From the NCBI GenBank assembly GCA_036491125.1, contig DASXCO010000180.1:1-45302 (forward strand): a DNA stretch of 45,302 nucleotides, written 5' to 3'. Source of the DNA: Acidimicrobiales bacterium (GTDB lineage Bacteria; Actinomycetota; Acidimicrobiia; Acidimicrobiales; AC-9). The notes beneath the pieces were generated by a model. That model did not search any database, was not told where the DNA came from, and was given only the letters and a program-made list of their open reading frames with translations. Positions 325 through 32,029 of this stretch are shown piece by piece (the stretch's first letter is position 1; each line of letters starts with the position of its first letter). Made by a program: the position numbers and the translations under genes.

Positions 325-329
325 CGCCG

Positions 330-824
330 TCAGGCCCGCTCGAGCGGTAGGACCCGTCCCGCCACGACCAGCAGGACCTCGTCGGCAGCGGCGGCGACCA
401 CCTGGTTGAGCGCGCCGAGCTCGTCACGAAACTGGCGTCCCATCTCGCTGCTCGGATGGACCCCAAGGCCCACCTCGTCGCTGACGACGACGGTGTCACC
501 GGCGCGCGCCGCGATGTCGTCGCGGAGCCGCTCGCCGTCAGCGGTGAACGACGGCACGCCGCCCAGCCAGGCGCCCAGCGAATCGACCAGCGCGGTGCCC
601 GGGAGCGCACGCAGCGCCGCACCCAGGTCCTCGCCCCGCCCGACCTCGACGGTGGACCAGCTGGCCGGCCGGCGGGCCCGGTGCACCGCGACGCGTTCGG
701 CCATCTCGGTGTCTGCGGCCACCGTCGTGGCCACATAGGTCACGGGCCCGGGCAGCCCGGCCGCCACCCTCTCACCCACCTGCGACTTGCCCGATCGGGC
801 TCCCCCGAGCACCAGCGTGATCAC
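330..824 (-). CDS. cobU: Adenosylcobinamide kinase / adenosylcobinamide-phosphate guanylyltransferase
   Basis: CobU phosphorylates adenosylcobinamide and transfers GMP to it, producing the substrate of CobS. The protein is 164 residues, slightly shorter than the usual 170-190. The P-loop GGARSGKS is at residues 7-14. His48 in AVHRARRP is the candidate guanylylated histidine, and VVSDEVGLGVHP matches the conserved DEVG segment. I chose the GTG at 824 because the family N-terminus (ITLVLGG) starts there and because it gives a 4-base GTGA overlap with the stop of cbiZ. An upstream in-frame ATG at 947 would add about 41 residues lying antiphase within cbiZ and is not credible. cobS follows after 5 bases. 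Confidence 0.95.
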   Translation of the reverse strand: MITLVLGGARSGKSQVGERVAAGLPGPVTYVATTVAADTEMAERVAVHRARRPASWSTVEVGRGEDLGAALRALPGTALVDSLGAWLGGVPSFTADGERLRDDIAARAGDTVVVSDEVGLGVHPSSEMGRQFRDELGALNQVVAAAADEVLLVVAGRVLPLERA

Positions 825-1450
825 CCTTCTCGCTCCCAGGTTCCACGCCGAACCGCGGCGTGGACGGCGCGCGCCAGGCGCGATCCCCACGTCGAGCGCG
901 GCCCGCCGAAGGCGAACGGCCGCCCCTCCGCGGGGCAGAGGACGCAAACCGCGTCGGTCGCCGTACCCGTGGCGTCGATTCCCAGCTCGGAGAGGGCCTG
1001 CACCTTGGCCTCGGTCGCGGTCGACACGGCGTTGACGAGCGCCGAGTCACTCAGCCGCTCGGGCACGCTGACCACGATGTTGATGGTGCCCACCAGCGGC
1101 TGGCGGGCAGCGTCCGGAGCCGCGGCCAGCAGCGGATGGCTCAGGCCGACAGTCGCCACCACCCCCACCCCGCCGTCGGTCGCCACGCCGTACTGGCGCA
1201 CGTCGGCGGCGGTGAGCATGCCGACACCGCGGCCCGGCAGGCCGAGCGACACCCCGAGCTTGCCCAGGTGGTGATCGGGGTCTCGCCGGGCGTAGGACGC
1301 TGGCACCTGGGCGTTGACGACCCAGCGCCTGACCCCGAGCCCGCCCCCGTGCGGCGCCGAGGCGATGGCGCGCACGGGCGCCGGCGACCTCCACACGAGC
1401 ACTGGAAGGTCGCGCCCGCTCTCCCGGCGAGACCTGATCTGCAACTGCAT
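821..1450 (-). CDS. cbiZ: Adenosylcobinamide amidohydrolase (corrinoid salvage)
   Basis: CbiZ removes the aminopropanol or nucleotide loop of scavenged corrinoids to give adenosylcobyric acid, which can re-enter the pathway. The 209-residue protein has the expected family order: VRRWVVNAQVP, then a DVRQYGVATDGGVGVVATVGLSHP segment (about residues 94-117), then GTINIVVSVPERLSDSALVNA and a late CPAEGRPFAFGGPRSTWGSR segment. The start is the ATG at 1450. A longer reading to 1816 would cross the riboswitch and is rejected. It is the first gene after the leftward cobalamin riboswitch and is translationally coupled to cobU. CbiZ is best known from archaea and some bacteria that salvage corrinoids, so its pairing with a de novo operon here is notable. 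Confidence 0.9.
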   Translation of the reverse strand: MQLQIRSRRESGRDLPVLVWRSPAPVRAIASAPHGGGLGVRRWVVNAQVPASYARRDPDHHLGKLGVSLGLPGRGVGMLTAADVRQYGVATDGGVGVVATVGLSHPLLAAAPDAARQPLVGTINIVVSVPERLSDSALVNAVSTATEAKVQALSELGIDATGTATDAVCVLCPAEGRPFAFGGPRSTWGSRLARAVHAAVRRGTWEREG

Positions 1451-1489
1451 GACGTCCACGCGTCCCTCCGCAACCCGGCCGTGAAAAGG

Positions 1490-1650
1490 GGTCCGGGCAG
1501 GCAGGTCTCCTGGCTCCCGGATCGACGCTCCCCTCGGCCTTCCCGCCCGATTGGGCCGTGGCCTGGCGATGAGGATCGCTCCCCGGTCACAGTTGCGGGA
1601 CAGCCCCGGACTCCCACCGGGTTCCCTGCGCTGCGGCGCCGACACTACCG
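1490..1650 (-). promoter_or_regulatory. Cobalamin riboswitch controlling cbiZ-cobU-cobS
   Basis: Read on the minus strand, the segment carries the cobalamin-riboswitch landmarks in order: an AGGGAACCCGGTGGGAGTCC core (about 1629-1610), then CGCAACTGTGACC (about 1600-1586), then the B12 box GAGCCAGGAGACCTGCC at about 1517-1501. It ends about 40 bases before the cbiZ ATG at 1450. The segment between the core and the B12 box contains GC-rich hairpins. The boundaries are approximate. The 5' end is within about 10 bases of the divergent cobO start, so its own promoter must lie inside the cobO coding region. Confidence 0.9.
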
Positions 1651-1658
1651 TGCCGGGA

Positions 1659-2183
1659 ATGGCACGCGCCGATTCGATCGTCCTGCTGAACACCGGGCAC
1701 GGCAAGGGCAAGTCGTCAGCCGCCTTTGGCGTGATGGGGCGGGCCTGGGCCCGAGGCTGGCGGGTCGGCGTCGTCCAGTTCGTGAAGGGCGGGAAATGGA
1801 AGGTCGGTGAGCGCAAGCTCGCCGATCACCTCGGCGTGGAGTGGCACACCCTGGGCGACGGCTTCACCTGGGAGTCGACCGATCTCGACGAGACGGCGGC
1901 CAAGGGGCGGCACGCCTGGGAGGTGGCCAGGGCCAAGCTGTCCTCGGGCGACTACGACCTGCTGATCCTCGACGAGGTCACCTACGCCGTGAGCTACGGC
2001 TGGGTGACCGTGGACGACGTCGTGTCGGGTGTACGCGATCGCGCTCCCCGCACGAACGTCGTGGTCACCGGCCGCGACGCTGCGCCGGAGCTGGTCGAGC
2101 TGGCGGACACGGTGACCGAGATGCGCAAGGTCAAGCACGCCTACGACCGCGGCATCACGGCCAAGAAGGGCATCGAGTACTGA
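1659..2183 (+). CDS. cobO: Cob(I)yrinic acid a,c-diamide adenosyltransferase
   Basis: This CobO/BtuR-type enzyme transfers the adenosyl group of ATP to the cobalt of reduced cobyrinic acid a,c-diamide. The 174 residues match the family length. The P-loop GHGKGKSS is at residues 13-20, followed by GWRVGVVQFVKGGK, LLILDEVTYAV and VVVTGRDAAPELVELADTVTEM. I chose the ATG at 1659, which directly precedes the conserved NTGHGKGKSS. An upstream in-frame start at 1551 would lie within the antisense of the riboswitch. The ribosome-binding site is weak (GGGA just before ATG), so the mRNA may be leaderless or start close to the ATG. cobB follows after a single base. Confidence 0.95.
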   Translation: MARADSIVLLNTGHGKGKSSAAFGVMGRAWARGWRVGVVQFVKGGKWKVGERKLADHLGVEWHTLGDGFTWESTDLDETAAKGRHAWEVARAKLSSGDYDLLILDEVTYAVSYGWVTVDDVVSGVRDRAPRTNVVVTGRDAAPELVELADTVTEMRKVKHAYDRGITAKKGIEY

Positions 2184-2184
2184 C

Positions 2185-3591
2185 GTGGGTGAGCTCGGCC
2201 CCCGCCTCGTGGTGGCCGGCACCCACTCCGGGGTTGGTAAGACGACCGTCGCCACCGGGCTCATGTCGGCCCTGTCGCGGCGGGGCGTCGCCGTCGCCAG
2301 CGCCAAGGTCGGACCCGACTTCATCGATCCCGGCTACCACGCCCTGGCCACGGGACGGCCCGCCCGCAACCTCGACGCCTGGATCTGCGGCCCCCCCGCC
2401 ATAGCGCCGCTGGCCGCCCGGGCCGCCGCATCGGCCGAGGTGCTGGTGGTCGAGGGGGTGATGGGGCTCTTCGACGGGGCCGCGTTCGAGGCCGACGGCG
2501 CGCGAGGGAGCACGGTGGAGGTGGCGTCCCTCCTCGACGCCCCTGTCGTCCTCGTGGTGGACGCGTCCGCCATGAGCACGTCCGTCGCCGCCCTGGTCCA
2601 TGGGTACAGCTCGTTCGACCGCGGCGTCCAGGTAGCGGGAGTTGTGCTCAACCGTGTGGGCAGTCCCGGCCACGAGGTCCTCCTGCGCGAGGCCCTCGAG
2701 CCGCTCGGCATCCCTGTCTACGGCGCCCTGCTCCGCGACGACACGCTGCAGTGGCGGGAGCGTCACCTGGGCCTGGTCCCCGTCGTGGAGCAGCGGCAGG
2801 AGGTCGATCAGTCGCTCGCCGCGCTGGCAGCTGCGATCGAGCGCCACTGCGACGTGCCCGGGCTGATGCGGCTGGCCCGGTCAGCACCGAAGCAGCAGGC
2901 CGCTGCGCTTGCCCCGGCTCGGGCGAGCGGGTCCGCTCGGGTGGCCGTGGCCGGCGGCCCCGCCTTCAGCTTCTCCTACCCCGACAACATCGAGCGGCTG
3001 GAGGAGGCAGGAGCCGAGGTGGTGCCGTTCGACCCCGCCGACGATGCGACGCTGCCGCATGATGTCGATGCCCTGTACGCCGGCGGCGGGTTCCCGGAGG
3101 TCTTCCTGGAGGCGCTGGCCGCGAACTCGCCGATGGTGGACGACGTGCGACGCCGCGTGGCCGGCGGCCTGGTCACCTGGGCCGAGTGCGGCGGGCTGCT
3201 GTGGCTGGCCCGCTCACTCGACGGGCGGCCGCTCTCGGGTGTCGTACCAGCCGTCGGCCGCATGACCGACCGTCTCACCCTCGGCTATCGCCGAGCCCGG
3301 ACCCGGGTCGCCTCGCCACTGGCCGAGCCGGGCGCGGAGCTACGCGGGCACGAGTTCCACTATTCCGTCCTGGATCCGGCGGGCGAGGCCCTCGACCTCG
3401 AAGGACGCTTCGGCGCCGGTAGGGGCGGGTTCGCCACGCCCACGCTCCTCGCGTCCTATCTCCACCTCCACCTCGGCGCCGACCCGGGCCCTGCGGAGCG
3501 GCTGGTCGCCGCGGCCAGCCGAGCGGAGGGCCGCAGCCGGGCTAGGGACCGGTCGCGGGCTGCTCGGCTCGGGCCGCCTCGGCCCGCCTGA
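2185..3591 (+). CDS. cobB: Cobyrinic acid a,c-diamide synthase (hydrogenobyrinate a,c-diamide synthase family)
   Basis: This CbiA/CobB-family amidotransferase uses glutamine and ATP to amidate the a and c side chains of cobyrinic acid. The 468-residue protein has the expected two modules. First is an N-terminal ATP-binding domain with P-loop GTHSGVGKTT (residues 12-21), AKVGPDFIDPGYH and the VEGVMGLFDG loop. Second is a C-terminal class I glutamine amidotransferase domain with YAGGGFPEVF, the nucleophile Cys in AECGGLLWL and the GHEFHYS motif. The GTG start lies one base after the cobO stop, giving a two-gene unit. No riboswitch is visible ahead of cobO-cobB. The last 50 bases overlap an antisense small reading frame at 3542-3673. 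Confidence 0.95.
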   Translation: MGELGPRLVVAGTHSGVGKTTVATGLMSALSRRGVAVASAKVGPDFIDPGYHALATGRPARNLDAWICGPPAIAPLAARAAASAEVLVVEGVMGLFDGAAFEADGARGSTVEVASLLDAPVVLVVDASAMSTSVAALVHGYSSFDRGVQVAGVVLNRVGSPGHEVLLREALEPLGIPVYGALLRDDTLQWRERHLGLVPVVEQRQEVDQSLAALAAAIERHCDVPGLMRLARSAPKQQAAALAPARASGSARVAVAGGPAFSFSYPDNIERLEEAGAEVVPFDPADDATLPHDVDALYAGGGFPEVFLEALAANSPMVDDVRRRVAGGLVTWAECGGLLWLARSLDGRPLSGVVPAVGRMTDRLTLGYRRARTRVASPLAEPGAELRGHEFHYSVLDPAGEALDLEGRFGAGRGGFATPTLLASYLHLHLGADPGPAERLVAAASRAEGRSRARDRSRAARLGPPRPA

Positions 3592-3673
3592 GCGCCTGGC
3601 GCTTCATGCGTGCCTTCTTGCGGCGGACACGGTCGTTGTGCCAGCGAACCGTCGGTCGTGCTCCTCTGCCCAT
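3542..3673 (-). CDS. Small, very basic protein of unknown function (43 aa)
   Basis: The frame encodes 43 residues beginning MGRGARPTVRWHNDR, followed by an Arg/Lys-rich stretch (VRRKKARMKRQALRR) and an Ala/Glu-rich end. The composition suggests an RNA- or ribosome-associated peptide. I recall short proteins of this general type in actinobacteria but cannot assign a family. It runs antisense to the end of cobB with a 50-base overlap. Its ATG at 3673 faces the repeat-containing spacer before the cobI riboswitch. The GAGG on the minus strand just upstream of the ATG is a plausible ribosome-binding site. The alternative is a chance frame in GC-rich DNA, since length alone is no support. Confidence 0.45.
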   Translation of the reverse strand: MGRGARPTVRWHNDRVRRKKARMKRQALRRAEAARAEQPATGP

Positions 3674-3704
3674 CTCCTCAGCCTAGGCGCGCCGCAACGT
3701 CCTC

Positions 3705-3780
3705 GGGCCGGCCTCCCGGGCCGCCCGTAGGCGCGCCGCGCCTGCCGCAAACGTCCTCGGGCCGGCCTCCCGGGCCGCCC
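3705..3780. repeat. Paired 22-bp near-palindromic repeats (locus A)
   Basis: Two identical copies lie at 3705-3726 and 3759-3780, 54 bases apart in the same orientation. Each has the core GGCCTCCCGGGCC between GC arms and is preceded by AACGTCCTC. The segment before each copy (starting TAGGCGCGCCGC) is also partly duplicated. The same element recurs at loci B (13783-13858) and C (33027-33086) and once inverted inside cobI (4707-4728). Here it sits between the small antisense gene and the cobI riboswitch. Confidence 0.8.
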
Positions 3781-3798
3781 CATTGCTCACGGAACTAG

Positions 3799-3929
3799 GA
3801 TCGTCGCCCGTCGCCAAGCGCGGGAAGCCGGTGGGAGACCGGCGCGAGTCAGATCCACTGTGACCGGGGAGCGAACCCCATGACCGGGGCGAGCGGCGAT
3901 CCGGGAGCCAGACACCGGCAGCGACGAGG
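3799..3929 (+). promoter_or_regulatory. Cobalamin riboswitch controlling the cobI-cbiX operon
   Basis: Plus-strand landmarks appear in order: CGGGAAGCCGGTGGGAGACC (about 3821-3840), CACTGTGACCGGGGAGCGAA (about 3856-3875) and the B12 box GGAGCCAGACACCGGC (about 3904-3919). A closing stem pairs TCGTCGC (3801-3807) with GCGACGA (3921-3927). The cobI ATG follows at 3955, so ligand-controlled access to the ribosome-binding site (CGGAGGCG at about 3941-3948) is the likely mechanism. This is inferred from the spacing. Confidence 0.93.
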
Positions 3930-3954
3930 ATCAGCGTGCACGCGGAGGCGAACC

Positions 3955-4749
3955 ATGGCCACGGCCGCAACCGAGCCCCGCGGCCGCCTGGTCGGGGTCG
4001 GCGTCGGCCCGGGCGACCCCGAGCTGGTCACCCGACAGGCGCTCCGGGTCCTCGCCGAGTCGGACCGGGTCGTGGCGCCGTCGAGCGCGGTCGACGCCGT
4101 CGGGCGCGCCGAGGCCATCGTCCGCCAGGCCAGCCCGGGGCTCCGCATGGACCGACTGGTCTTCGACATGACCGCTGACGGCACCCTGGGTGGACGGGCG
4201 GCCCGTGACGCCTCCCACCGGGCAGCAGCGCACTCCCTCCTCCCCTGGCTCGACGACGGCGAACAGATCGCCTTCGTCACCCTCGGCGACCCGAACATCT
4301 ACAGCACCTTCTCGTCGCTGACCGCCGCGGTCCGCTGCCTGCGACCAGCGGTGGAGATCGGCACGGTGCCCGGGATCATGGCCTTCCAGGCCCTGGCCGC
4401 CGAGGCCGGCGCCGTGCTGCTCGACGGCACCGAGTCGCTGTCGCTGGTCACCGCGCTCGACGGGCCCGAGGCACTCGACGCCGCCATCGAGGACCCGACC
4501 CGCGCCGTCGTCGTCTACAAGGGCGGCCGCCACGTGCCCGAGATCGCTGCCAGCCTCTCGCGCGCCGGTCGCCTCGACGGTGCGGTCATGGGCGAGCTGC
4601 TCGGTCTGCCCGGCGAGCGCGTCGGACCCCTGGCCCGGCTCGCCGACCGTCCGGCCACCTACCTGGCGACGGTCATCGTCCCGCCGAGCGCCCGTCGAGA
4701 GCGCGAGGCCGGCCCGGGAGGCCCGCCCGTGGAACGCGAGGAGCGGTGA
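3955..4749 (+). CDS. cobI: Precorrin-2 / cobalt-factor II C20-methyltransferase
   Basis: This SAM-dependent methyltransferase (CobI/CbiL) methylates C20 of the corrin precursor. The 264-residue protein begins with the family signature GRLVGVGVGPGDPELVTRQA (about residues 10-29). It continues with FVTLGDPNIYSTFSSL, the typical SAM-binding loop of the tetrapyrrole methylase fold, and VPGIMAFQALAA. I chose the ATG at 3955 because a start at 3880 would be inside the riboswitch. It is the first gene of the eight-gene operon and overlaps cobM by 4 bases (GTGA). Its low-complexity C-terminal tail is encoded by an inverted copy of the dispersed 22-bp element (4707-4728), which may have extended the protein. 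Confidence 0.94.
   Translation: MATAATEPRGRLVGVGVGPGDPELVTRQALRVLAESDRVVAPSSAVDAVGRAEAIVRQASPGLRMDRLVFDMTADGTLGGRAARDASHRAAAHSLLPWLDDGEQIAFVTLGDPNIYSTFSSLTAAVRCLRPAVEIGTVPGIMAFQALAAEAGAVLLDGTESLSLVTALDGPEALDAAIEDPTRAVVVYKGGRHVPEIAASLSRAGRLDGAVMGELLGLPGERVGPLARLADRPATYLATVIVPPSARREREAGPGGPPVEREER
4707..4728 (-). repeat. Inverted copy of the dispersed 22-bp element inside cobI
   Basis: This segment matches the reverse complement of the locus C element at 21 of 22 positions, keeping the core CCCGGGAGGCC. It encodes part of the Gly/Pro-rich tail of CobI (EAGPGGPPVE), just before the stop codon. It is a single copy, unlike the paired intergenic loci. Confidence 0.7.
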
Positions 4750-5561
4750 TCAGCTTCGTGGGCGCCGGCCCGGGCGCCGCCGACCTCATCACCCTGCGGG
4801 GCGCCCAGCGGCTCGGCCGCGCCGACGTGGTCGTGTGGGCATCCTCGCTGGTGCCCGACGCCCTCCTGACCCACACCCGGCCCGACGCCGTCGTCCACGA
4901 CTCGGCGACCATGACCCTCGAGGACGTCCTCGCCGTCTACGGCGACCACCCCGACGCGTCGATCGTGCGCCTCCACTCCGGCGACCCGGCGCTGTACGGC
5001 GCCATCCAGGAGCAGATCACCTGGTGCGTCGACAACGGGCGGGACTTCGAGATCGTGCCCGGCGTGAGCTCCCTGGGAGCTGCGGCCGCAGCTGCACGGC
5101 GGGAGCTGACCGTGCCCGCCCTGGCGCAGAGCGTGGTCATGACCAGGCTGGCCGGGCGGACGGCGGCGTCTATGCCGGCGCGCGAATCGGTGGCCGCCTT
5201 CGCCGCGCACGGCGCCACGATGGCGGTCTTCCTGTCGGGCGCCCGGCCGCGCCAGCTCCAGGATGAGCTCCTGGCCGAGGGCAGCGGTTATGGGCGTGAC
5301 ACCCCGGCCGTGATCGTGGTGCGCGCCTCCTGGCCGGACGAGGTGGTGGTACCGACGACGGTCGGTCGCCTGGCGGAGGATCTGGCCGCGACCGGGGCCA
5401 GGACCACCGTCCTCGTCCTGGTGGGACCGGCGCTGGCCGGCGCCGCCGGCAGTGACGGGACCCGCAGCCACCTCTACTCGCCGGCGTTCTCACACCAGTT
5501 CCGGCGCCGGTCGCCGCGGGGGTCGACGGCGGGCCGCGCCGCCCCCAAGGGGGCGCGGTGA
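4746..5561 (+). CDS. cobM: Precorrin-4 / cobalt-precorrin-4 C11-methyltransferase
   Basis: CobM/CbiF transfers a methyl group from SAM to C11 of the contracted macrocycle. The 271-residue protein starts at GTG with MISFVGAGPGAADLITLRG, the expected N-terminal signature. LHSGDPALYGAIQEQ (the SAM loop) and VPGVSSLGAAAA follow. The last 30 or so residues (rich in Arg, Ser and Ala) extend beyond the usual family end of about 250 and look unstructured. The start overlaps the cobI stop and the end overlaps the cbiD start, each by 4 bases, so translation is coupled through all three genes. Confidence 0.94.
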   Translation: MISFVGAGPGAADLITLRGAQRLGRADVVVWASSLVPDALLTHTRPDAVVHDSATMTLEDVLAVYGDHPDASIVRLHSGDPALYGAIQEQITWCVDNGRDFEIVPGVSSLGAAAAAARRELTVPALAQSVVMTRLAGRTAASMPARESVAAFAAHGATMAVFLSGARPRQLQDELLAEGSGYGRDTPAVIVVRASWPDEVVVPTTVGRLAEDLAATGARTTVLVLVGPALAGAAGSDGTRSHLYSPAFSHQFRRRSPRGSTAGRAAPKGAR

Positions 5562-6649
5562 GATCGGCGGAGCGAACCACCATTTCGCCGGAGCGAGGGC
5601 GCGGCCTGCGCACGGGCTGGACGACGGGTACCTGCGCGTCGGCCGCAGCCAAGGCGGCCGCGCAGGGTCTTCTGAGCGGCGAGGTCCCCGCCACCGTCGA
5701 CATCGCCCTCCCCGACGGGCGCCGGGTCGAGTTCGCCATCGAGCCCGGCGGCGCTCAAGCCCGGGCCGTCGTGGTGAAGGACGCTGGCGACGACCCCGAC
5801 TGCACGGACGGGGCCCGGATCACGGCCGAGGTGGCCTGGGGCGCGGCGTCGCTTTCGGGCCCCGAGCTGCGAGCCGGCCCGGGCGTGGGGACGATCACCA
5901 AGCCGGGGCTGGGCCTCGCCACGGGCCAGCCGGCCGTCAACCCGGTCCCCCGCCGCATGATCGGCGCCGCCCTGGCCGAGGTGACCGACCGACCGCTGGT
6001 GGTCACGTTCTCGGTCCCCGGGGGCGAGGCCATGGCGGCCAAGACCACCAACGACCGGCTGGGGATCGTCGGCGGCATCTCCATCCTGGGAACGACTGGG
6101 GTGGTCCGGCCCTTCTCGACCGCGGCCTACCGGGCGTCGGTCGTCCAGCAGGTCGACGTCGCCGCCGCCCAGGGCGAGACGATGATGGTGCTGGCGACCG
6201 GCAGCCGTTCGGAGCAGGCCGCCGTGCGCCTGCTCCCTCGCCTGGACCCGGTCTGTGTCGTGGAGGTCGGGGACTTCACCGGCATCGCCTTGCGGCGCGC
6301 CGCCGCCGCCGGTTTTCGACGGGCCGTGCTCGTCGCAATGGCAGGGAAGATCACCAAGCTCGCCGCGGGAGTGATGATGACCCACTTCCACCGGTCGAGG
6401 GTCGACAACGACCTCATGGCCCGGGTGGCCCGGGAGACGTCGGCGCCACCGCCCGTTCTCGACGCGGCCACGGCGACCGCCACCGCCCGGCACTTCTTCG
6501 ACGCGTGCCGGGCCGAGGGGTTCGCGTCCCCGCTCGAGGCACTCTGCCGCGAAGCGCGTGCTGCGTGTGAGGCGCACGTCGACCGGCGGCTGACCGTCGA
6601 GGTGTGGATGGTCGATTTCGACGGGGCCGAGGTGGTCGCCCGTGGCTGA
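5558..6649 (+). CDS. cbiD: Cobalt-precorrin-5B C1-methyltransferase
   Basis: CbiD methylates C1 after loss of the C2 extrusion fragment, a step specific to the cobalt-early pathway. The 363-residue protein shows the strongly conserved LRTGWTTGTCASAAAKAA (about residues 17-34). It also has DAGDDPDCTDGARI, GVGTITKPGLGL, and later GKITKLAAGVMMTHFH. The GTG start overlaps cobM by 4 bases and the gene overlaps cobL by 8. Its presence with cbiG and cbiX, rather than cobF and cobN, is the main evidence for early cobalt insertion. Confidence 0.95.
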   Translation: MRSAERTTISPERGRGLRTGWTTGTCASAAAKAAAQGLLSGEVPATVDIALPDGRRVEFAIEPGGAQARAVVVKDAGDDPDCTDGARITAEVAWGAASLSGPELRAGPGVGTITKPGLGLATGQPAVNPVPRRMIGAALAEVTDRPLVVTFSVPGGEAMAAKTTNDRLGIVGGISILGTTGVVRPFSTAAYRASVVQQVDVAAAQGETMMVLATGSRSEQAAVRLLPRLDPVCVVEVGDFTGIALRRAAAAGFRRAVLVAMAGKITKLAAGVMMTHFHRSRVDNDLMARVARETSAPPPVLDAATATATARHFFDACRAEGFASPLEALCREARAACEAHVDRRLTVEVWMVDFDGAEVVARG

Positions 6650-7829
6650 CCGCATCGCCGTGGTGGGCCTCGGCGCCGACGGGCTGTGCGGGGTGGGCAG
6701 CGAGGCGCGATGCGCCATCGAGCGAGCCACGCTCGTGGTGGGCGGACGCCGTCATCTCGCCGCGTTCGCACCGCCGAGCGGGACGCGCACCGCGCCGCTC
6801 ACGGCCGACGTGGGCGCGGCCCTGGACGAGATCGAGGCCGAGGCGGGCCCGGTCTGCGTCTTGGCGTCGGGCGATCCTGGGTTCTTCGGGATCGTCCGTC
6901 CGCTCGCCGAGCGGTTCGGGGCGGAGGGGCTGGAGGTGCATCCGGCTCCGTCTTTTGTCGCGCTGGCGTTCGCGCGGCTCGGGATGGCGTGGGACGACGC
7001 GGCCGTGGTCTCTGCCCACGGGCGCCCGCTGACGGCGGCCGCCCGGGCCGCGTCCTCACACGCCAAGGTGGCGGTGCTCGTCTCGCCCGACTCGCCGCCC
7101 GAGGCGCTCGGTCGCGCCCTCCTCGAGCTGGGCGTCACTGATCGGCGCGCCGCGGTGTGCGCCCGGCTGGGAGCCCCTGATGAGCGCGTCGACCTCGTGG
7201 ACCTCCACGCCCTGGCGGCAGGCACCTGGGACCCGATCTCGGTGGTGATCCTGCTGGCCGAGCCGGACCGGCAGTCTGCGCCGGTACTCGCCTGGGGTCT
7301 GCCCGACGGATCGTTCGATCATCGGGATGGGATGATCACCCACGCCGAGGTGCGCGCCGTCGCCCTGGGCAAGCTGTCGTTGCCGTCCCGCGGCGTGGTG
7401 TGGGACGTCGGCGCCGGCAGCGGCAGCGTCGCCATCGAGTGCGCCCGCTCGGTCCCGGCCGCGCGGGTGCTCGCCGTCGAGGAGAACATCGCCGACGCCG
7501 AACGGATCTCGCACAACGCCGACCGCCACGGCGTCACCGTGGAAGTGGTCACGGGCCGGGCGCCCGCGGCCTTCGAGGGGCTTCCCGATCCCGACCGGGT
7601 GTTCGTCGGCGGTGGCGGTCACGCCGTCTTGTCGGCTGTGCTCGAACGACTCCGTCCCGGCGGTCGGGTTGTCGCGACCTACGCCGCCGTCGACCGGGCC
7701 GTCGCCGCTGCCGATCGGTTGGGCGCGGTGGTGCAGGTGGCCGTCTCGCGAGGGCGGCGCCTTCCCGACGGGGGTCTGCGCCTGGCGGCCGAGAACCCCG
7801 TCTTCGTGGCGTGGGGTCCGCAAGCGTGA
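6642..7829 (+). CDS. cobL: Precorrin-6Y C5,15-methyltransferase, decarboxylating (CbiE-CbiT fusion)
   Basis: This two-domain enzyme methylates C5 and C15 and decarboxylates the C12 acetate side chain. The N-terminal CbiE domain (about residues 1-200) starts ADRIAVVGLGADGLCG and has LASGDPGFFGIVRPLAERFG. The C-terminal CbiT domain (about 215-395) has the SAM motif WDVGAGSGSVAIECAR and RVFVGGGGHAV. The 395 residues match the fused CobL form. The GTG at 6642 overlaps the end of cbiD by 8 bases. The reduced substrate would require precorrin-6A reductase (CobK/CbiJ), which is not encoded in the window. Confidence 0.94.
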   Translation: MADRIAVVGLGADGLCGVGSEARCAIERATLVVGGRRHLAAFAPPSGTRTAPLTADVGAALDEIEAEAGPVCVLASGDPGFFGIVRPLAERFGAEGLEVHPAPSFVALAFARLGMAWDDAAVVSAHGRPLTAAARAASSHAKVAVLVSPDSPPEALGRALLELGVTDRRAAVCARLGAPDERVDLVDLHALAAGTWDPISVVILLAEPDRQSAPVLAWGLPDGSFDHRDGMITHAEVRAVALGKLSLPSRGVVWDVGAGSGSVAIECARSVPAARVLAVEENIADAERISHNADRHGVTVEVVTGRAPAAFEGLPDPDRVFVGGGGHAVLSAVLERLRPGGRVVATYAAVDRAVAAADRLGAVVQVAVSRGRRLPDGGLRLAAENPVFVAWGPQA

Positions 7830-9490
7830 CGGTGCTGACGATCAGCGTCACCGAGCGCGGTCGGCTGCTGGCTAAACGGCTGCCTTTCGAGCACACCCAC
7901 GGCGATGTCGGCGCGACCGTGCGGGCCCGGTGGTCCAAGGTGGATGCGCTGGTGCTCGTGCTGGCCACGGGCGCTGCCGTGCGGATCGTGGCCCCTCTGC
8001 TGGAGGACAAGCGAGTCGACCCCGCGGTGGTGTGTCTGGACGAGGCCGGGCGCTTTGCCGTGGCCCTCTGCGGTGGCCACCTCGGGGGTGCCAACACGCT
8101 CGCCCGACAGGTGGCCGCGCTCGTCGGCGCCGAGCCCGTGGTCACCACGGCCACCGACGCCACCGGCACCTGCCCGCTGGACGCGCTGCCGGGCTTCATT
8201 GCGGACGGCGACGTGGCCGGGGTGACCGCGGCCATGCTCGATGGACGCGCACCACTCGTCGACAACGACCTGTCCTGGCCGCTGCCCTCGACGGTGCCCG
8301 TGGGCGCCGGGCCTGAGCGCCTGGTCATCACCGACCGGCGCGTGGAGCCCGGCCGTCATGGCGTGGCCGTCCTGCGACCACCCACCCTCGTCGCCGGGAT
8401 CGGCACCTCGACCGGTGCGCCGCCCGACGAGGTGGTGGGGCTGCTCGGCACGAGCCTGGCCGAGGCGGGGCTGGACGCCGCCTGTGTGGCGGAGGTGGCC
8501 ACCATCGACCGCCGGGCGGACGAGCCCGCGCTCCACGCCTTCGGTGGTCCCCTGCGACTGTTCCCGGCCGAGACCCTGCGGCGAGTCCGGGTGCCGACGC
8601 CCAGCGGGACCGTGGACTCCGCCGTCGGCACGCCGAGCGTCGCCGAGGCGGCGGCGCTCCTCGCCGCCGGCCCGGGCGCCGAGCTGGTCATCACCAAACG
8701 CACGTCCGCCCACGCGGCCGTGGCCGTAGCTCGACGGCGCCGCCCCCGAGGGCACCTGGCCATCGTCGGCCTCGGCCCCGGCGATCCCCGCCACCGCACG
8801 CCCGCCGCCGAGGCCGCCGTCCGCCACGCCGACATCGTGATCGGCTACGGCCCCTACGTTGAGCAGTGCGCCGACCTGATCGGCCCGCACCACCAGATCG
8901 TCCGCTCCCCCATCGGTGACGAGGAGGACCGGGCCCGCCAGGCCGTCGAGCAGGCCGGCAGCGGCCGTCGGGTGGCCCTCGTCAGCTCGGGCGACGCCGG
9001 GGTCTACGCCATGGCATCGGTCGCCCTCGAGCAGGCGACGGCGAGCGAGGGCGCGGCATCGGCGTTCAACCTCGACGTCGTGCCCGGTATCACCGCCGCC
9101 ACCGCCGCGGCCGCAGCCCTGGGCGCTCCCCTCGGCCACGATCATGCCGCCATCAGCCTCTCGGACCTGCTGACCCCGTGGGCCACGATCGAGTCTCGGC
9201 TCCAGGCCGTGGCCGCTGCCGATCTCGTCGTGTCGCTGTACAACCCCCGCTCCCGGGGACGCCCGTGGCAGCTCGACGCCGCCCGCCGGATCCTCCTCGA
9301 GCATCGGGTGCCGTCCACGCCCGTCGGCGTGGCGACCGATCTGTTCCGCAATGGTGAGCGGGTCCGCGTCACGACCCTCGCCGATCTCGACCCGGAGGAG
9401 GTGGGCATGACCACGTGTGTCGTCGTCGGCTCGTCGGCGACGCGGGTCGTGGACGGCAGGATGGTCACGCCCAGGGGGTACCGGCCGTGA
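7826..9490 (+). CDS. cbiG-cobJ: Fused CbiG (cobalt-precorrin-5A hydrolase) and CobJ/CbiH (precorrin-3B C17-methyltransferase)
   Basis: One 554-residue chain carries two steps of ring contraction. The CbiG part (about residues 1-300) contains ATGAAVRIVAPLLEDKRVDP, the LCGGHLGGAN loop and VAGIGTSTGAP. The CobJ part begins near residue 309 with HLAIVGLGPGDPRHRTPAA and continues with SSGDAGVYAMAS, VVPGITAATAAAAALG and SLYNPRSRGRPWQL. The start is a GTG overlapping the cobL stop by 4 bases; the longer upstream frame is only a shadow within cobL. CobJ carries out the C17 methylation and ring contraction, and CbiG opens the resulting delta-lactone, so the fusion joins neighbouring chemistry. The end overlaps the ferredoxin start. 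Confidence 0.94.
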   Translation: MTVLTISVTERGRLLAKRLPFEHTHGDVGATVRARWSKVDALVLVLATGAAVRIVAPLLEDKRVDPAVVCLDEAGRFAVALCGGHLGGANTLARQVAALVGAEPVVTTATDATGTCPLDALPGFIADGDVAGVTAAMLDGRAPLVDNDLSWPLPSTVPVGAGPERLVITDRRVEPGRHGVAVLRPPTLVAGIGTSTGAPPDEVVGLLGTSLAEAGLDAACVAEVATIDRRADEPALHAFGGPLRLFPAETLRRVRVPTPSGTVDSAVGTPSVAEAAALLAAGPGAELVITKRTSAHAAVAVARRRRPRGHLAIVGLGPGDPRHRTPAAEAAVRHADIVIGYGPYVEQCADLIGPHHQIVRSPIGDEEDRARQAVEQAGSGRRVALVSSGDAGVYAMASVALEQATASEGAASAFNLDVVPGITAATAAAAALGAPLGHDHAAISLSDLLTPWATIESRLQAVAAADLVVSLYNPRSRGRPWQLDAARRILLEHRVPSTPVGVATDLFRNGERVRVTTLADLDPEEVGMTTCVVVGSSATRVVDGRMVTPRGYRP

Positions 9491-9690
9491 AGCTCCCCGC
9501 CGGCCCGTCTCGACCCACGGTGACGATCGACGCCCGCTGCACGGCGTGCGGGGCCTGCATCGTCACGTGCCCCGAGACGGCGCTGCTGCCGGCACCGCGA
9601 CGCCCGCTCGTGGTGGATAACCGATGCACCGGCTGCCTGGCTTGTGTCGAGGTGTGCCCGGCGGGTGCCGTGTCCGAAGGTTGGCATTGA
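9487..9690 (+). CDS. 2[4Fe-4S] ferredoxin within the cobalamin operon
   Basis: This 67-residue protein has two C-x2-C-x2-C-x3-C clusters: CTACGACIVTC (residues 18-28) and CTGCLACVEVC (about 48-58), each followed by Pro. That is the classic bacterial two-cluster ferredoxin fold. The GTG start overlaps the cbiG-cobJ stop (GTGA) and the end overlaps the cobH start (TTGA), so it is made with the corrin enzymes. The exact partner is not evident from sequence. Reduction of a corrin intermediate, or of Co(II) before adenosylation by CobO, is a reasonable inference. Confidence 0.93.
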   Translation: MKLPAGPSRPTVTIDARCTACGACIVTCPETALLPAPRRPLVVDNRCTGCLACVEVCPAGAVSEGWH

Positions 9691-10298
9691 CTACTCCCCA
9701 TCCCATCGAGGTCGAGAGCTACCGTCTCCTCGACCAGCGGGTCGACCTGTCGCACCTCGCGCCGCTCGTGCGCGCCGTTGTCGCCCGCGTGATCCACGCC
9801 ACGGCCGACACCGACTACGCCGGCACCATGGTCCTCGACGAGAATGCCGTGCTCGCCGGCATCGAGGCCGTGCGCATTGGCGCTCCGGTCATCACCGACG
9901 TCGAGATGGTCGGCCACGGGATCACCGGCACAGCGTCGGTCTGCTGTCTCGATGAGATCGAGTCGACGCCGCCGTCCGGACCGACGCGCAGCGCCCGGGC
10001 CATGGCGCTGGCGGCTCGCCGCCACCCCACGGGGGCAGTGGTGGCGGTGGGCTGCGCGCCGACTGCGCTCCTCGAAGCGGTGCGGATGGCGACAGAGGAG
10101 GCGTTCGCGCCAGCGGTCATCGTCGGCCTGCCGGTCGGCTTCGTAGGGGCCGCAGACGCCAAGGCGGCGGCCCGGGCCAGCGGCCTACCCACGATCACCA
10201 ACGTGGGAGAGAAGGGGGGCTCGGCCGTAGCCGCCGCCGCCGTCAACGCCATCGTCCGACTGGCACGGGCTCCAGGAGGCGGGGGCGACAGTGGCTGA
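9687..10298 (+). CDS. cobH: Precorrin-8X methylmutase
   Basis: CobH/CbiC moves a methyl group from C11 to C12, giving (cob)yrinic acid. The 203-residue protein has the expected VARVIHATADTDYAG (the conserved His is proposed to be catalytic), ITDVEMVGHGI, VVAVGCAPTALLEA and the GLPVGFVGAADAK to NVGEKGGS run. I place the start at a TTG that overlaps the ferredoxin stop by 4 bases. It gives a normal N-terminus (TTPHPIEVESYRLLD), while the upstream frame runs back into the ferredoxin. It overlaps cbiX by 8 bases. Confidence 0.94.
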   Translation: MTTPHPIEVESYRLLDQRVDLSHLAPLVRAVVARVIHATADTDYAGTMVLDENAVLAGIEAVRIGAPVITDVEMVGHGITGTASVCCLDEIESTPPSGPTRSARAMALAARRHPTGAVVAVGCAPTALLEAVRMATEEAFAPAVIVGLPVGFVGAADAKAAARASGLPTITNVGEKGGSAVAAAAVNAIVRLARAPGGGGDSG

Positions 10299-11124
10299 GC
10301 GCGAACCCGCCCTGCTCCTCATCGGGCACGGCAGCCGCTCCGCCGCCGGGGTCGACCAGTACTGGATGCTCGCCGATGCGGTTCGCCGTTCGCGGCCGGG
10401 TCTGACGATGGGGTGCGGCTTCATCGAGCTGGCCCGACCCGACCTCGACGACGCCATCGGCGACCTCGTCGAGCGAGACGTGACATCGGTGATCGCGATG
10501 CCGTTGGTGCTGCTCGGCGCCGGACACCTCAAGAGCGACGGCCCCGCGGCGCTCTCACGGGGCCGGATCCGCCATCCCGGTGTCAACTTCACCTACGCCC
10601 GCGACCTCGGAATCCACCCCGCCGTCCTGGCCGTGGCCGAGGATCGCATACGCACCGCCGGCGGCGACGCGGTCGTCCTGGTGGGGCGGGGGTCGAGCGA
10701 CCCCGACGCCAACGCCGACCTCTACAAGGTGGGGCGCCTGCTCGACGACTCGAGGGGGCTGGGCATGGTCGAGCCGGCCTTCGTCTCCCTCGCCCGTCCG
10801 TCGGTCGCCGACGCCCTCGACCGCTGCCGCCGACTCGGCGCCAGCACCGTCGCCGTCGTCCCCTACTTCCTCTTCACCGGGCTCCTGGTCGACCGCATCG
10901 AGCGACAGGCCCGAGTCTGGGCCGAGCGTCATCCCGACGTCGAGGTCGTGGTCGGCAGCGAGCTCGGTCCCGACGAGCGCGTGGCCCGCCTCGTCATCGA
11001 GCGCTACGACGAGGCGAGGACCGGCGGCGCGGTCATGAACTGCGACTGCTGCATCTATCGCACGGCGCTACCGGGCTACGAGCAGCGCGTCGGAGCCCCT
11101 GCCGCCGCCACCCACACCCACTGA
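10291..11124 (+). CDS. cbiX: Sirohydrochlorin cobaltochelatase, long CbiX form
   Basis: CbiX inserts cobalt into sirohydrochlorin at the start of the cobalt-early pathway. The 277-residue protein is a tandem of two chelatase-like halves. The first keeps LLIGHGSRSAAG with the metal-binding His near residue 13. In the second half the corresponding site reads VGRGSSDPDAN, where the His is replaced by Arg. The tail contains MNCDCCIYRTALPGYE (from about residue 250), like the Cys-bearing tails of long CbiX proteins, and ends in alternating Thr-His, which may bind metal. The gene is the last of the operon; no convincing terminator is visible in the 86 bases before the next gene. Confidence 0.92.
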   Translation: MAEREPALLLIGHGSRSAAGVDQYWMLADAVRRSRPGLTMGCGFIELARPDLDDAIGDLVERDVTSVIAMPLVLLGAGHLKSDGPAALSRGRIRHPGVNFTYARDLGIHPAVLAVAEDRIRTAGGDAVVLVGRGSSDPDANADLYKVGRLLDDSRGLGMVEPAFVSLARPSVADALDRCRRLGASTVAVVPYFLFTGLLVDRIERQARVWAERHPDVEVVVGSELGPDERVARLVIERYDEARTGGAVMNCDCCIYRTALPGYEQRVGAPAAATHTH

Positions 11125-28659: not shown

Positions 28660-29070
28660 CTAGCGCCGGCGGGTCTTCCTCGCCGGCCCGGCGACCCGTT
28701 TGGTCTTGGTCGCCTTGGCGGTCTTGGTCGCCTTGGCGGTCTTGGTCGACTTCGCTGCCCGAGCCGCCCGAGCCGGCTTCGCCGGTGCCCTGGCGCCGAC
28801 CCGCCGGCTCACTCTCCCGGCAAGGCCCTCGAGGCACTGCGCCCACGTGCGCTCGCCTACCGCCCACAGCCACAGCTCGTAGTCGTAGCCGCGGAGGATC
28901 GCCGACAGCGCGGCTCGATCCACACCTTGCCCGGCGAGCGCGGGACCCCACGCCTTCCACAGCGGTGTGACGATGAGCCGACCCGAGGCGATCTTCGCCC
29001 GCACCGCATCCGGCTCGCTCGTCACGCGAGCCCGCAGTCCGACCGGCTCGGCGAGCCCCGGCAGCTCCAC
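28660..29070 (-). CDS. Small protein with Lys/Ala/Thr-rich histone-H1-like tail, last gene of the siroheme cassette
   Basis: The 136-residue protein has a globular N-terminal part (about 1-93) with IVTPLWKAWGPALAGQGVDR and YDYELWLWAVGERTWAQCLEG, rich in Trp. A basic tail follows of repeated Lys-Thr/Ala units (about 94-136, including an 18-base DNA repeat read as TKTAKA), like eukaryotic H1 or bacterial HU-type tails. The GTG start lies 5 bases after the FrhB-like gene, so it belongs to the same leftward unit. I do not recognise the N-terminal family. A role in nucleic acid binding is suggested only by the tail. Confidence 0.7.
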   Translation of the reverse strand: MELPGLAEPVGLRARVTSEPDAVRAKIASGRLIVTPLWKAWGPALAGQGVDRAALSAILRGYDYELWLWAVGERTWAQCLEGLAGRVSRRVGARAPAKPARAARAAKSTKTAKATKTAKATKTKRVAGPARKTRRR

Positions 29071-29075
29071 GAGGC

Positions 29076-30368
29076 TCAGCGCTCTCGAAAGACGGGAGCC
29101 CGGTCGGTGTCCGCATACGACCGGAGGTGCTCCTCGAAGTCGACGAACAGCGACCCATCAGGGTCGAAGGGCCTCGAGAGCGTCTGGAGAGCGATCTTCT
29201 TGTCGAAGCCGCTCAGCTTGTGGAGCGGCTCGACCGCGTCGAGGCCCCGAACCTCCAGCCGGTCTCTCGCCAGCTCGAAGGCCGTGCGACCGGGCTCGGT
29301 GCGCACCAGGACGCTCGAGTACCCCTCGTCGCTCCCGACACTGCCGACCGAGATGTCGGCCCCGTGGCCCAAGAAGTCGGCGCACTCGTCGCAGCCCTTG
29401 AGGGCGGCACCGTGGAAGTCGCGCACGGGTTCGTCCACGAGGCGGTTCCCCTCGCGGTCCTCGACGATCATCCGACCGTGGATGACGTCCACCTTGCCCA
29501 CCTGGGACAGCAGAAGTCCTCGCTCGTCTCGCAGCTCGCGAAGCATGAGACCCCGGTAGTCGAAGCTCTTGGTGCACAACAGGGCGATCGTGAGCACGAC
29601 AGCCTCGACCCGCGACTTGCCCCAGGTCCACGGCCGGGCCTGCATGGCTCTGATCCCTTGCACCTCGCACGGCGTGCCGACCACGGCGATCCGTGGATCG
29701 GGGGGAAGGTCGTGGCGATCAAGATCCAGATGACCAAGGGCCATGGTCTGGTTGTAGAAGCTGCCGGCCGAAGCCGCGACCTCGTCGGGCGTCCGGGCCA
29801 GGTGGGCGACGCCCTTCCACGGCTTGTTGTCGTCCTCGCGCGCCAGCAGCACGCCGTCCAGGTGGCCGGCCTCGAGGGCGGCAACGAGGATGGCGCTCAC
29901 CACGCCTCCGTCCTGGGCTCCCGACATGCCGCCGGCCACCCGGGCCGTGTGCGAGTCCCGCACGACGCCCAGCCCGTTGCTCGCCGGTCCCCCGGTGATC
30001 GTCCACCCCGAGTCTGCACCATCAGGCGGCGGGCTGACTGCGTCTGCCCGCCCTCGCGCCCCGTTGCCGTTGCGGCGGGATGACAGGGTGACCGGTGTCT
30101 CCTCGATGAGCGGCCAGGTCGCCTCGTAGCGCAACCCACCCCGCGGGCAGAAGTCCCAGCACAGCGAGCAGCCCGTGCACATCTTCACCAGCTCGGGCAG
30201 ATCGTCGGTACCGATGCCGATCGAGTCGGAGGGGCACACCGCGACGCAGGCGCCACACTGGATGCAGCGCTCAGCATCGATGACCGCCGCCTCGAGCTCC
30301 CAGAACCAGGTCTTGCCGGGCGCCTCCTCGGCGCCGCTCATCTCCTCGCGGATGGTGAAGCCGGCCAT
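29076..30368 (-). CDS. FrhB-type coenzyme F420 dehydrogenase/hydrogenase beta subunit with N-terminal 2[4Fe-4S] ferredoxin domain
   Basis: The 430-residue protein has an N-terminal ferredoxin-like domain. Cys35, 38, 41 and 45 (CIQCGACVAVCP) and Cys64, 67, 70 and 74 (CTGCSLCWDFCP) would hold two 4Fe-4S clusters. The FrhB core (about 150-420) has VVGTPCEVQGIRAMQ, KGCDECADFLGHGADISVG and SVLVRTEPG, matching the family that moves electrons between F420 (via FAD) and iron-sulfur carriers. I chose the ATG at 30368, which overlaps the NirA-like stop by one base (TGATG). The stretch between domains is variable. The pairing implies that it feeds electrons to the siroheme enzyme; F420H2 as donor is inferred from the family. 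Confidence 0.88.
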   Translation of the reverse strand: MAGFTIREEMSGAEEAPGKTWFWELEAAVIDAERCIQCGACVAVCPSDSIGIGTDDLPELVKMCTGCSLCWDFCPRGGLRYEATWPLIEETPVTLSSRRNGNGARGRADAVSPPPDGADSGWTITGGPASNGLGVVRDSHTARVAGGMSGAQDGGVVSAILVAALEAGHLDGVLLAREDDNKPWKGVAHLARTPDEVAASAGSFYNQTMALGHLDLDRHDLPPDPRIAVVGTPCEVQGIRAMQARPWTWGKSRVEAVVLTIALLCTKSFDYRGLMLRELRDERGLLLSQVGKVDVIHGRMIVEDREGNRLVDEPVRDFHGAALKGCDECADFLGHGADISVGSVGSDEGYSSVLVRTEPGRTAFELARDRLEVRGLDAVEPLHKLSGFDKKIALQTLSRPFDPDGSLFVDFEEHLRSYADTDRAPVFRER

Positions 30369-32029
30369 CAGGCGGACCCGTTCAGCGTCGCCCGCACGTC
30401 GGCGTTGGCCACCCGCCGGGACCACCGATGGAACGGCTCGTCGTCCGCGCGCTCGGCTTGGTAGCGACGCAACACCCGCACCAGGGCGTCGGGCACGTCG
30501 TCGATGGGCTTGGCGCCTTCGACCCAGTCGGTGAACCTGGCCTCTGCGCCCAGGCTGCCCCCGACGCCGATGTCGACCGCCTCGGAGATCCGATCAGGCA
30601 GGTGCGCCGTCTCCCCACGGAAGCCGATGTCGGCGATCTGGGGCTGGGCGCACGATGCCGGGCACCCCGAGAAGTGCATGCGGACGATGCCGTCGCCGTT
30701 GCTGCTCCCGTTCGCCCCAGTCCAGTCGGCGCCCAGCTCGTCGTCGAGGAAACGGGCCCACTGCGTGGCGCGCGCCTTGGTCTCGACCACGGCGAAGCGA
30801 CAGAACTCGCTGCCCGTGCAGGCGGCAACGCCGCGGGTGAAAGGCCCAGGGTTGGGACTGTGGACCCCGAGCAGCGGCTCGGCCAGCAGATCGTCGAGGC
30901 GATCCTCGGGCACTCCCGGGAGAACCAGGTTCTGATCTGTCGCCAGCCGCAGCTGGCCGTCCCCGTAGGTCTCGGCCAGTCGGGCCGCCTCGATGAGGTC
31001 CCCTCCCGACATCCGGCCCACGGTCACGCTCAATCCCACGTAGAACCGCCCTCGCTGACGCTCGGCGTGGACACCCACGTGGTCGCCGCGGTAGCGCCGG
31101 GTCAGCTGCTCTCCGGCGGGTGCGAGCGCAACCGCACTCCTTGCCCCCAGTTCGGCGCGAAATCCCTCGGGCCCGAGCTCCTGGACCAGATACCGCATCC
31201 GGCAGATGCCGCGGTTCTCCCGATTTCCCAGCTCACCGTAGAGCTGGGCGATGGCCCTGGTGAGCTCCACGGCCTGCTCGGGCCGAACGAAGACGTCGAT
31301 GTCCGACGCCATGCGGGGCCCGTCGGACAGTCCCCCGCCGACGAGGACGTTGAACCCGACAGTTCCGTCCTCGGCGCGAGCGGGCCACATCCCGATGTCG
31401 TTGATCTCGGCCTGGGCGCAGTCCTCACGGCACCCCGTGACGCTCATCTTGAACTTGCGGGGCAGGTTGGCGTACTCGCGGTTCCCGGTGAAGAAGTTGG
31501 AGATGGCGGAGGCGACGGGCGAGGCATCGAAGACCTCCTCGGCGTCGATCCCGGCGACCGGGCAGCACAGCACGTTGCGGGCCGAGTCGCCGCACGCCTG
31601 CACGGTGACCACGCCGACCGACTCCAACCGTCGCCAGATCTCGGGCACGTCCCCGATGCGGATCCAGTGCAGCTGCACGTCCTGGCGCGTCGTCAGGTCG
31701 CAGAAGCCGTCTCCGAACGCCGGGTTGGGCTCCGGGCCGCGAGCGAACTGCTCCGCGATCTCGCCGATGGTCCGGGCCTGGACGGCGCTGAGGCGACCCC
31801 CCGGAACCTTGATGCGCACCATGAACGCATCCCCGCCCTGACGCTGGGGATAGAGGCCCACCCACTTGAGCCGCTCCTGCTCACCGTCAACGGCGGCGAT
31901 GGCCTCGGGGCCCTCTTTGGCGTAGCGGTCGATGACGGCCTGGTAGACGTCGAGGGGGGGGCGCGCCAGCTTGATCCGCTCGACTTCGTTGAGCTTTCCC
32001 ACCGTCCGAAACGGCCGTAGGAACTCCAT
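30368..32029 (-). CDS. NirA-type siroheme nitrite or sulfite reductase
   Basis: The 553-residue enzyme has the two-repeat nitrite/sulfite reductase ferredoxin-like fold. Cys404 and Cys410 (CTGSEFC) and Cys456 and Cys460 (CPASC) are the 4Fe-4S and siroheme-binding cysteines. The CTGxEFC form followed by AVVETK is nearer to nitrite reductase and mycobacterial NirA/SirA than to CysI. Other matches are WVGLYPQRQ, DLTTRQDVQLHWI, VQACGDSARNVLCCPVAG and VTGCREDCAQAEINDIG. These enzymes carry out six-electron reduction of nitrite to ammonia or sulfite to sulfide; which one cannot be told. ATG at 32029; the ribosome-binding site is weak. It is first in the unit and directly coupled to the FrhB gene. 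Confidence 0.92.
   Translation of the reverse strand: MEFLRPFRTVGKLNEVERIKLARPPLDVYQAVIDRYAKEGPEAIAAVDGEQERLKWVGLYPQRQGGDAFMVRIKVPGGRLSAVQARTIGEIAEQFARGPEPNPAFGDGFCDLTTRQDVQLHWIRIGDVPEIWRRLESVGVVTVQACGDSARNVLCCPVAGIDAEEVFDASPVASAISNFFTGNREYANLPRKFKMSVTGCREDCAQAEINDIGMWPARAEDGTVGFNVLVGGGLSDGPRMASDIDVFVRPEQAVELTRAIAQLYGELGNRENRGICRMRYLVQELGPEGFRAELGARSAVALAPAGEQLTRRYRGDHVGVHAERQRGRFYVGLSVTVGRMSGGDLIEAARLAETYGDGQLRLATDQNLVLPGVPEDRLDDLLAEPLLGVHSPNPGPFTRGVAACTGSEFCRFAVVETKARATQWARFLDDELGADWTGANGSSNGDGIVRMHFSGCPASCAQPQIADIGFRGETAHLPDRISEAVDIGVGGSLGAEARFTDWVEGAKPIDDVPDALVRVLRRYQAERADDEPFHRWSRRVANADVRATLNGSA

Follow-up and report, generated by a model that had tools for sequence, protein, structure and literature searches.

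Which substrate is reduced by the protein pair encoded at positions 28660-32029 of contig DASXCO010000180.1, and from which donor are the electrons drawn? The contig (assembly GCA_036491125.1) is from an Acidimicrobiales bacterium, and the whole stretch analysed here, 45,302 nucleotides long, is referred to as the window. The cassette comprises a gene for a siroheme reductase of the NirA type (alpha) followed by a gene for a ferredoxin-FrhB protein (beta), and an initial annotation had interpreted it as a split counterpart of the F420-dependent sulfite reductase (Fsr) of methanogens. The analysis presented here suggests that the cassette is probably a bacterial assimilatory F420H2-dependent sulfite reductase (aFsr).

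The idea of an F420-linked split sulfite reductase is not new, and the cassette is a bacterial variant of aFsr. Susanti and Mukhopadhyay (2012) proposed a putative aFsr in haloarchaea that consists of an aSir-type subunit, aFsr-alpha, and an Fsr-N homologue, aFsr-beta (PMC3448663). The text of that paper places aFsr in haloarchaea only, and its tree of Fsr-N (beta-subunit) sequences includes Rubrobacter xylanophilus Rxyl_0964 and a Thermobaculum protein (PMC3448663); the name recurs in later work, still qualified as putative (PMC9295563). A literature search, with subscription papers mostly outside its reach, found no assay of any aFsr and no description of it in Actinobacteria. New here are the wide bacterial distribution of the pair in sulfate-assimilation operons, its operon linkage with F420-biosynthesis genes in Rubrobacteraceae, and a third conserved gene (gamma).

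Organization and conservation of the gene pair

The initial annotation had described a one-base overlap between alpha and a 430-residue protein with two N-terminal [4Fe-4S] sites and an FrhB core. This description was borne out by Pfam and by the cysteine positions, the TGA stop of alpha and the ATG of beta sharing a single base (TGATG). The annotated range also covers a third open reading frame (ORF), gamma, that was not described at the time; its GTG lies after a 5-base gap from the beta stop. The reading as a two-gene cassette thus stands in so far as alpha and beta are separate, adjacent genes, and is incomplete in that the bacterial form has three conserved genes.

Table 1. Genes of the cassette, with positions in the window
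Gene	Predicted product	Position	Strand	Details
alpha	NirA-type siroheme-[4Fe-4S] sulfite reductase (predicted)	32029..30368	-	ATG start; 553 aa; Pfam and model
beta	ferredoxin (2x[4Fe-4S])-FrhB protein; proposed FAD-containing F420H2 dehydrogenase subunit	30368..29076	-	ATG start; 430 aa
gamma	small undescribed protein	29070..28660	-	GTG start; 136-aa ORF; conserved domain of ~100 aa at 29070-28792

Next, relatives of beta were sought in a one-genome-per-species scan, which gave 244 stretches, the best 80 of which were kept. These came mostly from Acidimicrobiia and Rubrobacterales, with one from a bin labelled Chloroflexi and one from a bin labelled Acidobacteriota. Alpha immediately precedes beta, in the same orientation, in all 84 testable loci, the 85th being cut by a contig end. 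Of the 79 loci with a placeable start, 66 show an overlap of the two genes by 1 base or 4 bases. Across the class the pair was found in 5 of 247 genomes, always with both genes present. Because the genes are adjacent in every testable locus and the catalytic and cluster residues are invariant in the homologues (see below), the pair is real and old and is not a chance arrangement. The conservation across Acidimicrobiia that the initial annotation had suggested looking for is therefore seen, and it extends beyond that class. An apparent lack of FrhB beside alpha in one genome (G286) and in several Rubrobacteraceae was an artefact of merged stop-to-stop ORFs, FrhB being present. No natural fusion of alpha and beta was seen among the loci read, no systematic fusion search having been made, and no relatives were found among viral contigs. 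The Acidobacteriota-bin copy (L042) groups inside Acidimicrobiia in the tree of alpha and so may be a misbinned contig; the Chloroflexi-bin copy (L036) may be real, since the 2012 paper lists Thermobaculum.

Six haloarchaeal plasmids also carry the pair, in the same order and with the genes overlapping or abutting, annotated as ferredoxin-nitrite reductase and Coenzyme F420 hydrogenase/dehydrogenase. A tree of 40 siroheme reductases groups every alpha that has an FrhB partner in one clade (support 99/99) comprising actinobacterial and haloarchaeal proteins and a diverged second actinobacterial lineage, while 17 unpaired actinobacterial NirA proteins, Escherichia coli CysI and tobacco nitrite reductase fall outside it. 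All betas, including those of haloarchaeal aFsr, likewise form a single clade (support 100/98), outside which lie methanogen Fsr, a CODH component and a second FrhB of the window's own genome. Because several long branches come together in the beta tree, its deep joins are uncertain, but in outline it agrees with the alpha tree. The simplest reading is that alpha and beta constitute one two-gene unit that has been inherited and transferred together.

Two observations concern the outlying sequences in these trees. The diverged lineage is represented by L136 (G451:C119) and L139 (G281:C15), with alphas 41-44% identical to that of the window, and in G451 the pair immediately follows an ordinary solo NirA. 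The second FrhB-type protein (384 aa; L002:1153-2307, G000:C47) belongs to a clade other than that of beta, and its neighbours, identified by eye, are formamidopyrimidine-DNA glycosylase-like and uracil-DNA glycosylase-like frames.

Predicted cofactor sites of alpha and beta

Alpha contains two NIR_SIR and two NIR_SIR_ferr stretches (Pfam), which together make up both repeated halves of the NirA/SiR (sulfite reductase) fold. The ligands of the cluster and siroheme, Cys404, 410, 456 and 460, are present as initially annotated, and these four cysteines are invariant in an alignment of 34 diverse alphas, as are the proposed anion-binding residues R115, R151, K192 and K194. The AlphaFold model of alpha has a predicted local distance difference test score (pLDDT) of 85.8 and, by Foldseek, its closest fold is that of Mycobacterium tuberculosis NirA (1zj8; template modelling (TM) score 0.87, ~32% identity), compared with TM 0.32-0.36 to methanogen Fsr. 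The earlier proposal that the cassette is built on a NirA-type half and not on Fsr-C is consistent with both the domain content and the fold match. Cysteines 146, 156, 200 and 204 in the N-terminal half of alpha were considered as an extra cluster that might serve as entry point for beta, but were rejected as a specific feature, most solo actinobacterial NirA proteins sharing them.

Lys192-Phe-Lys194 of alpha aligns with KFK in E. coli CysI, a position at which tobacco nitrite reductase has KWN. In structures of these enzymes Lys-x-Lys is the mark of sulfite reductases and Lys-x-Asn that of nitrite reductases (NiR), the residues concerned being K215/K217 in the E. coli enzyme and K224/N226 in NiR. 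The nitrite-type site of plant and cyanobacterial enzymes does not occur in alpha, all 34 homologues having Lys192-x-Lys194.

Beta was matched by the Pfam families Fer4, FrhB_FdhB_N and FrhB_FdhB_C, and its ferredoxin part has two CX2CX2CX3CP motifs. There are exactly 12 cysteines (35/38/41/45, 64/67/70/74 and 234/265/326/329), all invariant in an alignment of 34 diverse betas, and they suffice exactly for three predicted [4Fe-4S] clusters, two of ferredoxin type and one inside the FrhB core.

Methanogen Fsr (PDB 7np8, 7npa) has the same combination of a ferredoxin with an F420H2 oxidase of FrhB type that supplies electrons to a siroheme-[4Fe-4S] site, and the same core cluster (cluster 1) pattern, PC...C...CX2C, as beta. 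However, Fsr joins these parts in one chain, in which the siroheme domain is Dsr-like and of half size and a 2x[4Fe-4S] ferredoxin is inserted, whereas the window encodes two proteins, with a full two-half alpha and no inserted ferredoxin. The core cluster spacing is X30/X60 in beta and PCX40CX54CX2C in Fsr (PMC10229431). Moreover, the second ferredoxin cluster of Fsr (cluster 3) is held by three cysteines and a glutamate from an extended loop, 171-189 (PMC10229431), whereas, judged by sequence, the second ferredoxin motif of beta has four cysteines and the corresponding segment is ten residues shorter (X30 against X40). E. coli CysIJ also pairs a siroheme subunit with a flavoprotein subunit for sulfate assimilation, but CysJ, a diflavin reductase that uses NADPH, is unrelated to FrhB, and CysI is only weakly similar to alpha. 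The nearest counterpart is haloarchaeal aFsr, likewise two adjacent genes for an aSir-type two-half siroheme subunit and an Fsr-N homologue, and grouping with the bacterial copies in both trees.

Pathway context and substrate

ORFs around the 85 loci, many of them truncated, were clustered, and one representative of each neighbour was checked with NCBIfam, except CysN, which was named by eye. The neighbours found were CysH (44 loci), the siroheme synthase Met8 (35), CysD (26), CysN (24), Sat (17), CysC (14), a TauE-like permease (15), CofD (11) and CofE (11). NCBIfam confirmed the CysH, Met8/CysG-N, CysD, Sat and CysC representatives; the permease had no match there and was also named by eye. 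In Rubrobacteraceae the order is cofD-cofE-cysH-alpha-beta-gamma-sat-cysC, followed in Rubrobacter by tauE, and in Acidimicrobiaceae met8-cysN-cysD is divergent from cysH-alpha-beta. This placement in sulfate-assimilation operons, in Rubrobacteraceae together with cofD and cofE, is one distinction of the bacterial form from haloarchaeal aFsr. In the window's own genome, a family search placed cysD together with cysN on contig C36; cysH maps to C89 and NirB, a separate reductase, to C124.

Of 40 pair-bearing genomes, 30 encode no NIR_SIR protein other than alpha, which must be the sulfite reductase there if those genomes assimilate sulfate. In two haloarchaea, Halomontanus rarus (L132:4293-8185) and Natronococcus occultus (L133:4544-8182), a rhodanese-like domain is fused to alpha, a fusion more suggestive of sulfur than of nitrogen chemistry. 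Four observations make sulfite the most likely substrate of alpha: its place in sulfate-assimilation operons, its Lys-x-Lys site, a NirB encoded separately in the window's own genome and, in most pair-bearing genomes, the lack of another siroheme reductase. Nitrogen assimilation is therefore unlikely to be the main role of alpha-beta. The initial annotation had offered nitrite or sulfite as substrate and had linked the F420 pool to nitrogen or sulfur assimilation; the sulfur half of each statement is favoured by this context, and the nitrogen half is not.

The electron donor of beta

The closest PDB sequences to beta are Fsr, the F420-reducing CODH component and FrhB, all of them F420-active. 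The search gave E 1.6e-36, as against 1.7e-4 for HCAR, a match weaker by about 30 orders of magnitude. The Foldseek ranking of the beta model, itself poor, agrees with the sequence ranking and includes HCAR among the matches; neither ranking is diagnostic of the donor.

F420 biosynthesis genes, which the initial annotation had proposed should be confirmed in the genome, were found there by family search (CofD and FbiC/CofG), and CofD scored above its curated cut-off in 38 of the 40 pair-bearing genomes. Furthermore, comparison of positions showed that, among 19 Rubrobacteraceae genomes (family f65), 18 have cofD no more than 8 kb from alpha. The donor of beta is most likely F420H2. The earlier view of a split, Fsr-like, F420H2-linked reductase in an actinobacterium accordingly holds for the separate subunits and the F420-making hosts, and the use of F420H2 itself is predicted from sequence. 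In one member of the Rubrobacteraceae the cofD adjoining the pair looks broken (G425:C1:1460816-1461613; a match in three pieces, one with an internal TAG), and the pair is intact.

Weighing of alternative readings

Several observations count against an F420H2-dependent sulfite reductase. With regard to the donor, nearly every genome of the class has cofD (227 of 247), so the mere presence of F420 genes is weak evidence and was ruled out as a discriminating feature, the linkage in Rubrobacteraceae being the informative part; cofD is not beside the pair in the window's genome, nor in Acidimicrobiia generally. HCAR, a plant enzyme fed by ferredoxin, has the FrhB fold and does not use F420. The beta model has a pLDDT of 62.5, falling below 50 in the ferredoxin part, which is too low for docking F420 or alpha; the structural comparison with Fsr that had been suggested initially thus yielded the low TM-score of alpha given above and a beta model too poor to dock. 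With regard to the pathway, the pair stands apart in the window and cysH is not adjacent. Finally, solo actinobacterial NirA proteins also have Lys-x-Lys, M. tuberculosis NirA among them, so this motif separates sulfite- from nitrite-type sites and not FrhB-paired from unpaired enzymes. Its occurrence in solo NirA is in line with the description of M. tuberculosis NirA as a siroheme sulfite reductase (in a reference cited within PMC11237513). No FrhB partner was found beside solo actinobacterial NirA at the loci examined.

The existence of HCAR, and its appearance among the matches of the beta model, would allow a sulfite reductase whose beta receives its electrons from ferredoxin or another flavoprotein, with the near-universal cofD telling nothing and the F420 linkage in Rubrobacteraceae being incidental. 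This is considered unlikely, given that the beta sequence is far nearer to the F420-active enzymes, that cofD and cofE lie in or beside the operon in Rubrobacteraceae, and that the haloarchaeal sister enzymes come from F420-making archaea.

An F420H2-dependent nitrite reductase, serving nitrogen assimilation or nitrite detoxification, appears more doubtful still. The alpha fold does match plant nitrite reductases closely, and the best NCBIfam name for alpha is ferredoxin-nitrite reductase, albeit below cut-off, the nitrite reductase and NirA cut-offs being unmet. There is also a precedent for F420H2-dependent nitrite reduction in FsrII of anaerobic methanotrophic (ANME) archaea (PMC9295563). 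Against this, the pair has sulfate-assimilation neighbours and Lys-x-Lys in place of Lys-x-Asn, the window's own genome has its NirB, and alpha is the sole candidate sulfite reductase in most pair-bearing genomes. A nitrite side activity is nevertheless likely for any such enzyme.

That alpha and beta are co-transcribed yet independent, alpha as a ferredoxin-dependent sulfite reductase and beta in another F420 reaction, is barely credible: solo NirA-type enzymes exist, that of M. tuberculosis being described as above, but the pair is split at none of the 84 testable loci and, in both of the domains of life that have them, the two proteins are confined to clades that match.

A third conserved gene

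A profile search placed gamma next after beta at 78 of the 84 bacterial loci that could be tested, but at none of the six haloarchaeal loci examined and not at the only diverged-lineage locus open to the test, so that its presence sets the bacterial loci apart from haloarchaeal aFsr. Within the phylum gamma occurs in 26 of 296 genomes, in one copy each, and all 26 are among the 28 with a close alpha; none of the 268 genomes without a close alpha has it. The two pair-bearing genomes in which it is missing are G435, with alpha at a contig end, and G063, which belongs to the diverged clade that has no gamma. Similarly, it occurs in 3 of the 247 genomes of the class, all among the 5 with the pair.

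No credible relatives of gamma were found in Pfam, NCBIfam or PDB sequences, and a match to L23 in the family search was rejected as reflecting only the Lys/Ala tail of one member (P0003). No earlier description was found in the literature search, within the same reach as for aFsr. The invariant residues include several Trp and Arg, as well as Glu and Gly, and the absence of an invariant Cys makes a role as electron carrier unlikely; as a small subunit, gamma probably serves structure or assembly.

Proposed route of electrons and implications

If the cassette is an aFsr, FAD (flavin adenine dinucleotide) in beta would take a hydride from F420H2 and split it into single electrons. These would pass from FAD to the FrhB-core cluster, then through the two ferredoxin-type clusters of beta to alpha, with which beta is expected to form a complex. 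The siroheme-[4Fe-4S] site of alpha would reduce sulfite to sulfide with six electrons, at a cost of three F420H2 per sulfite. Alpha-beta would thereby catalyse the last reductive step of sulfate assimilation, after CysD/CysN or Sat/CysC and CysH, in place of CysIJ or a ferredoxin-dependent SiR, and gamma would contribute to structure or assembly.

We tentatively propose, with the balance tipping slightly against it, a three-subunit alpha-beta-gamma F420H2-dependent enzyme as the only sulfite reductase that Rubrobacteraceae and many Acidimicrobiia possess, gamma being a previously undescribed family. Were this so, these organisms would need F420 to grow on sulfate, and gamma would be needed by the bacterial enzyme and dispensed with by haloarchaea.

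The known F420 enzymes of bacteria mostly carry out single-step reductions in mycobacteria and streptomycetes. With an aFsr of the kind proposed, sulfite reduction linked to F420 would be present in bacteria as well as in archaea, and F420 would become nutritionally essential for some aerobic actinobacteria of soils and hot springs. The cofactor would drive a core assimilation step in Rubrobacter, a culturable genus, and the 2012 prediction is therefore directly testable. Gamma represents a further small protein family, one whose association is sharply delimited.

Other features of the window

A cobalamin riboswitch (Rfam RF00174, 91.5 bits) lies at 1484-1667 on the minus strand of the window, ~20 kb from the cassette. 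It is surrounded by CbiD-, CbiC- and CbiX-like frames, identified by eye, which give the stretch at about 1-11124 the appearance of a cobalamin-biosynthesis region.

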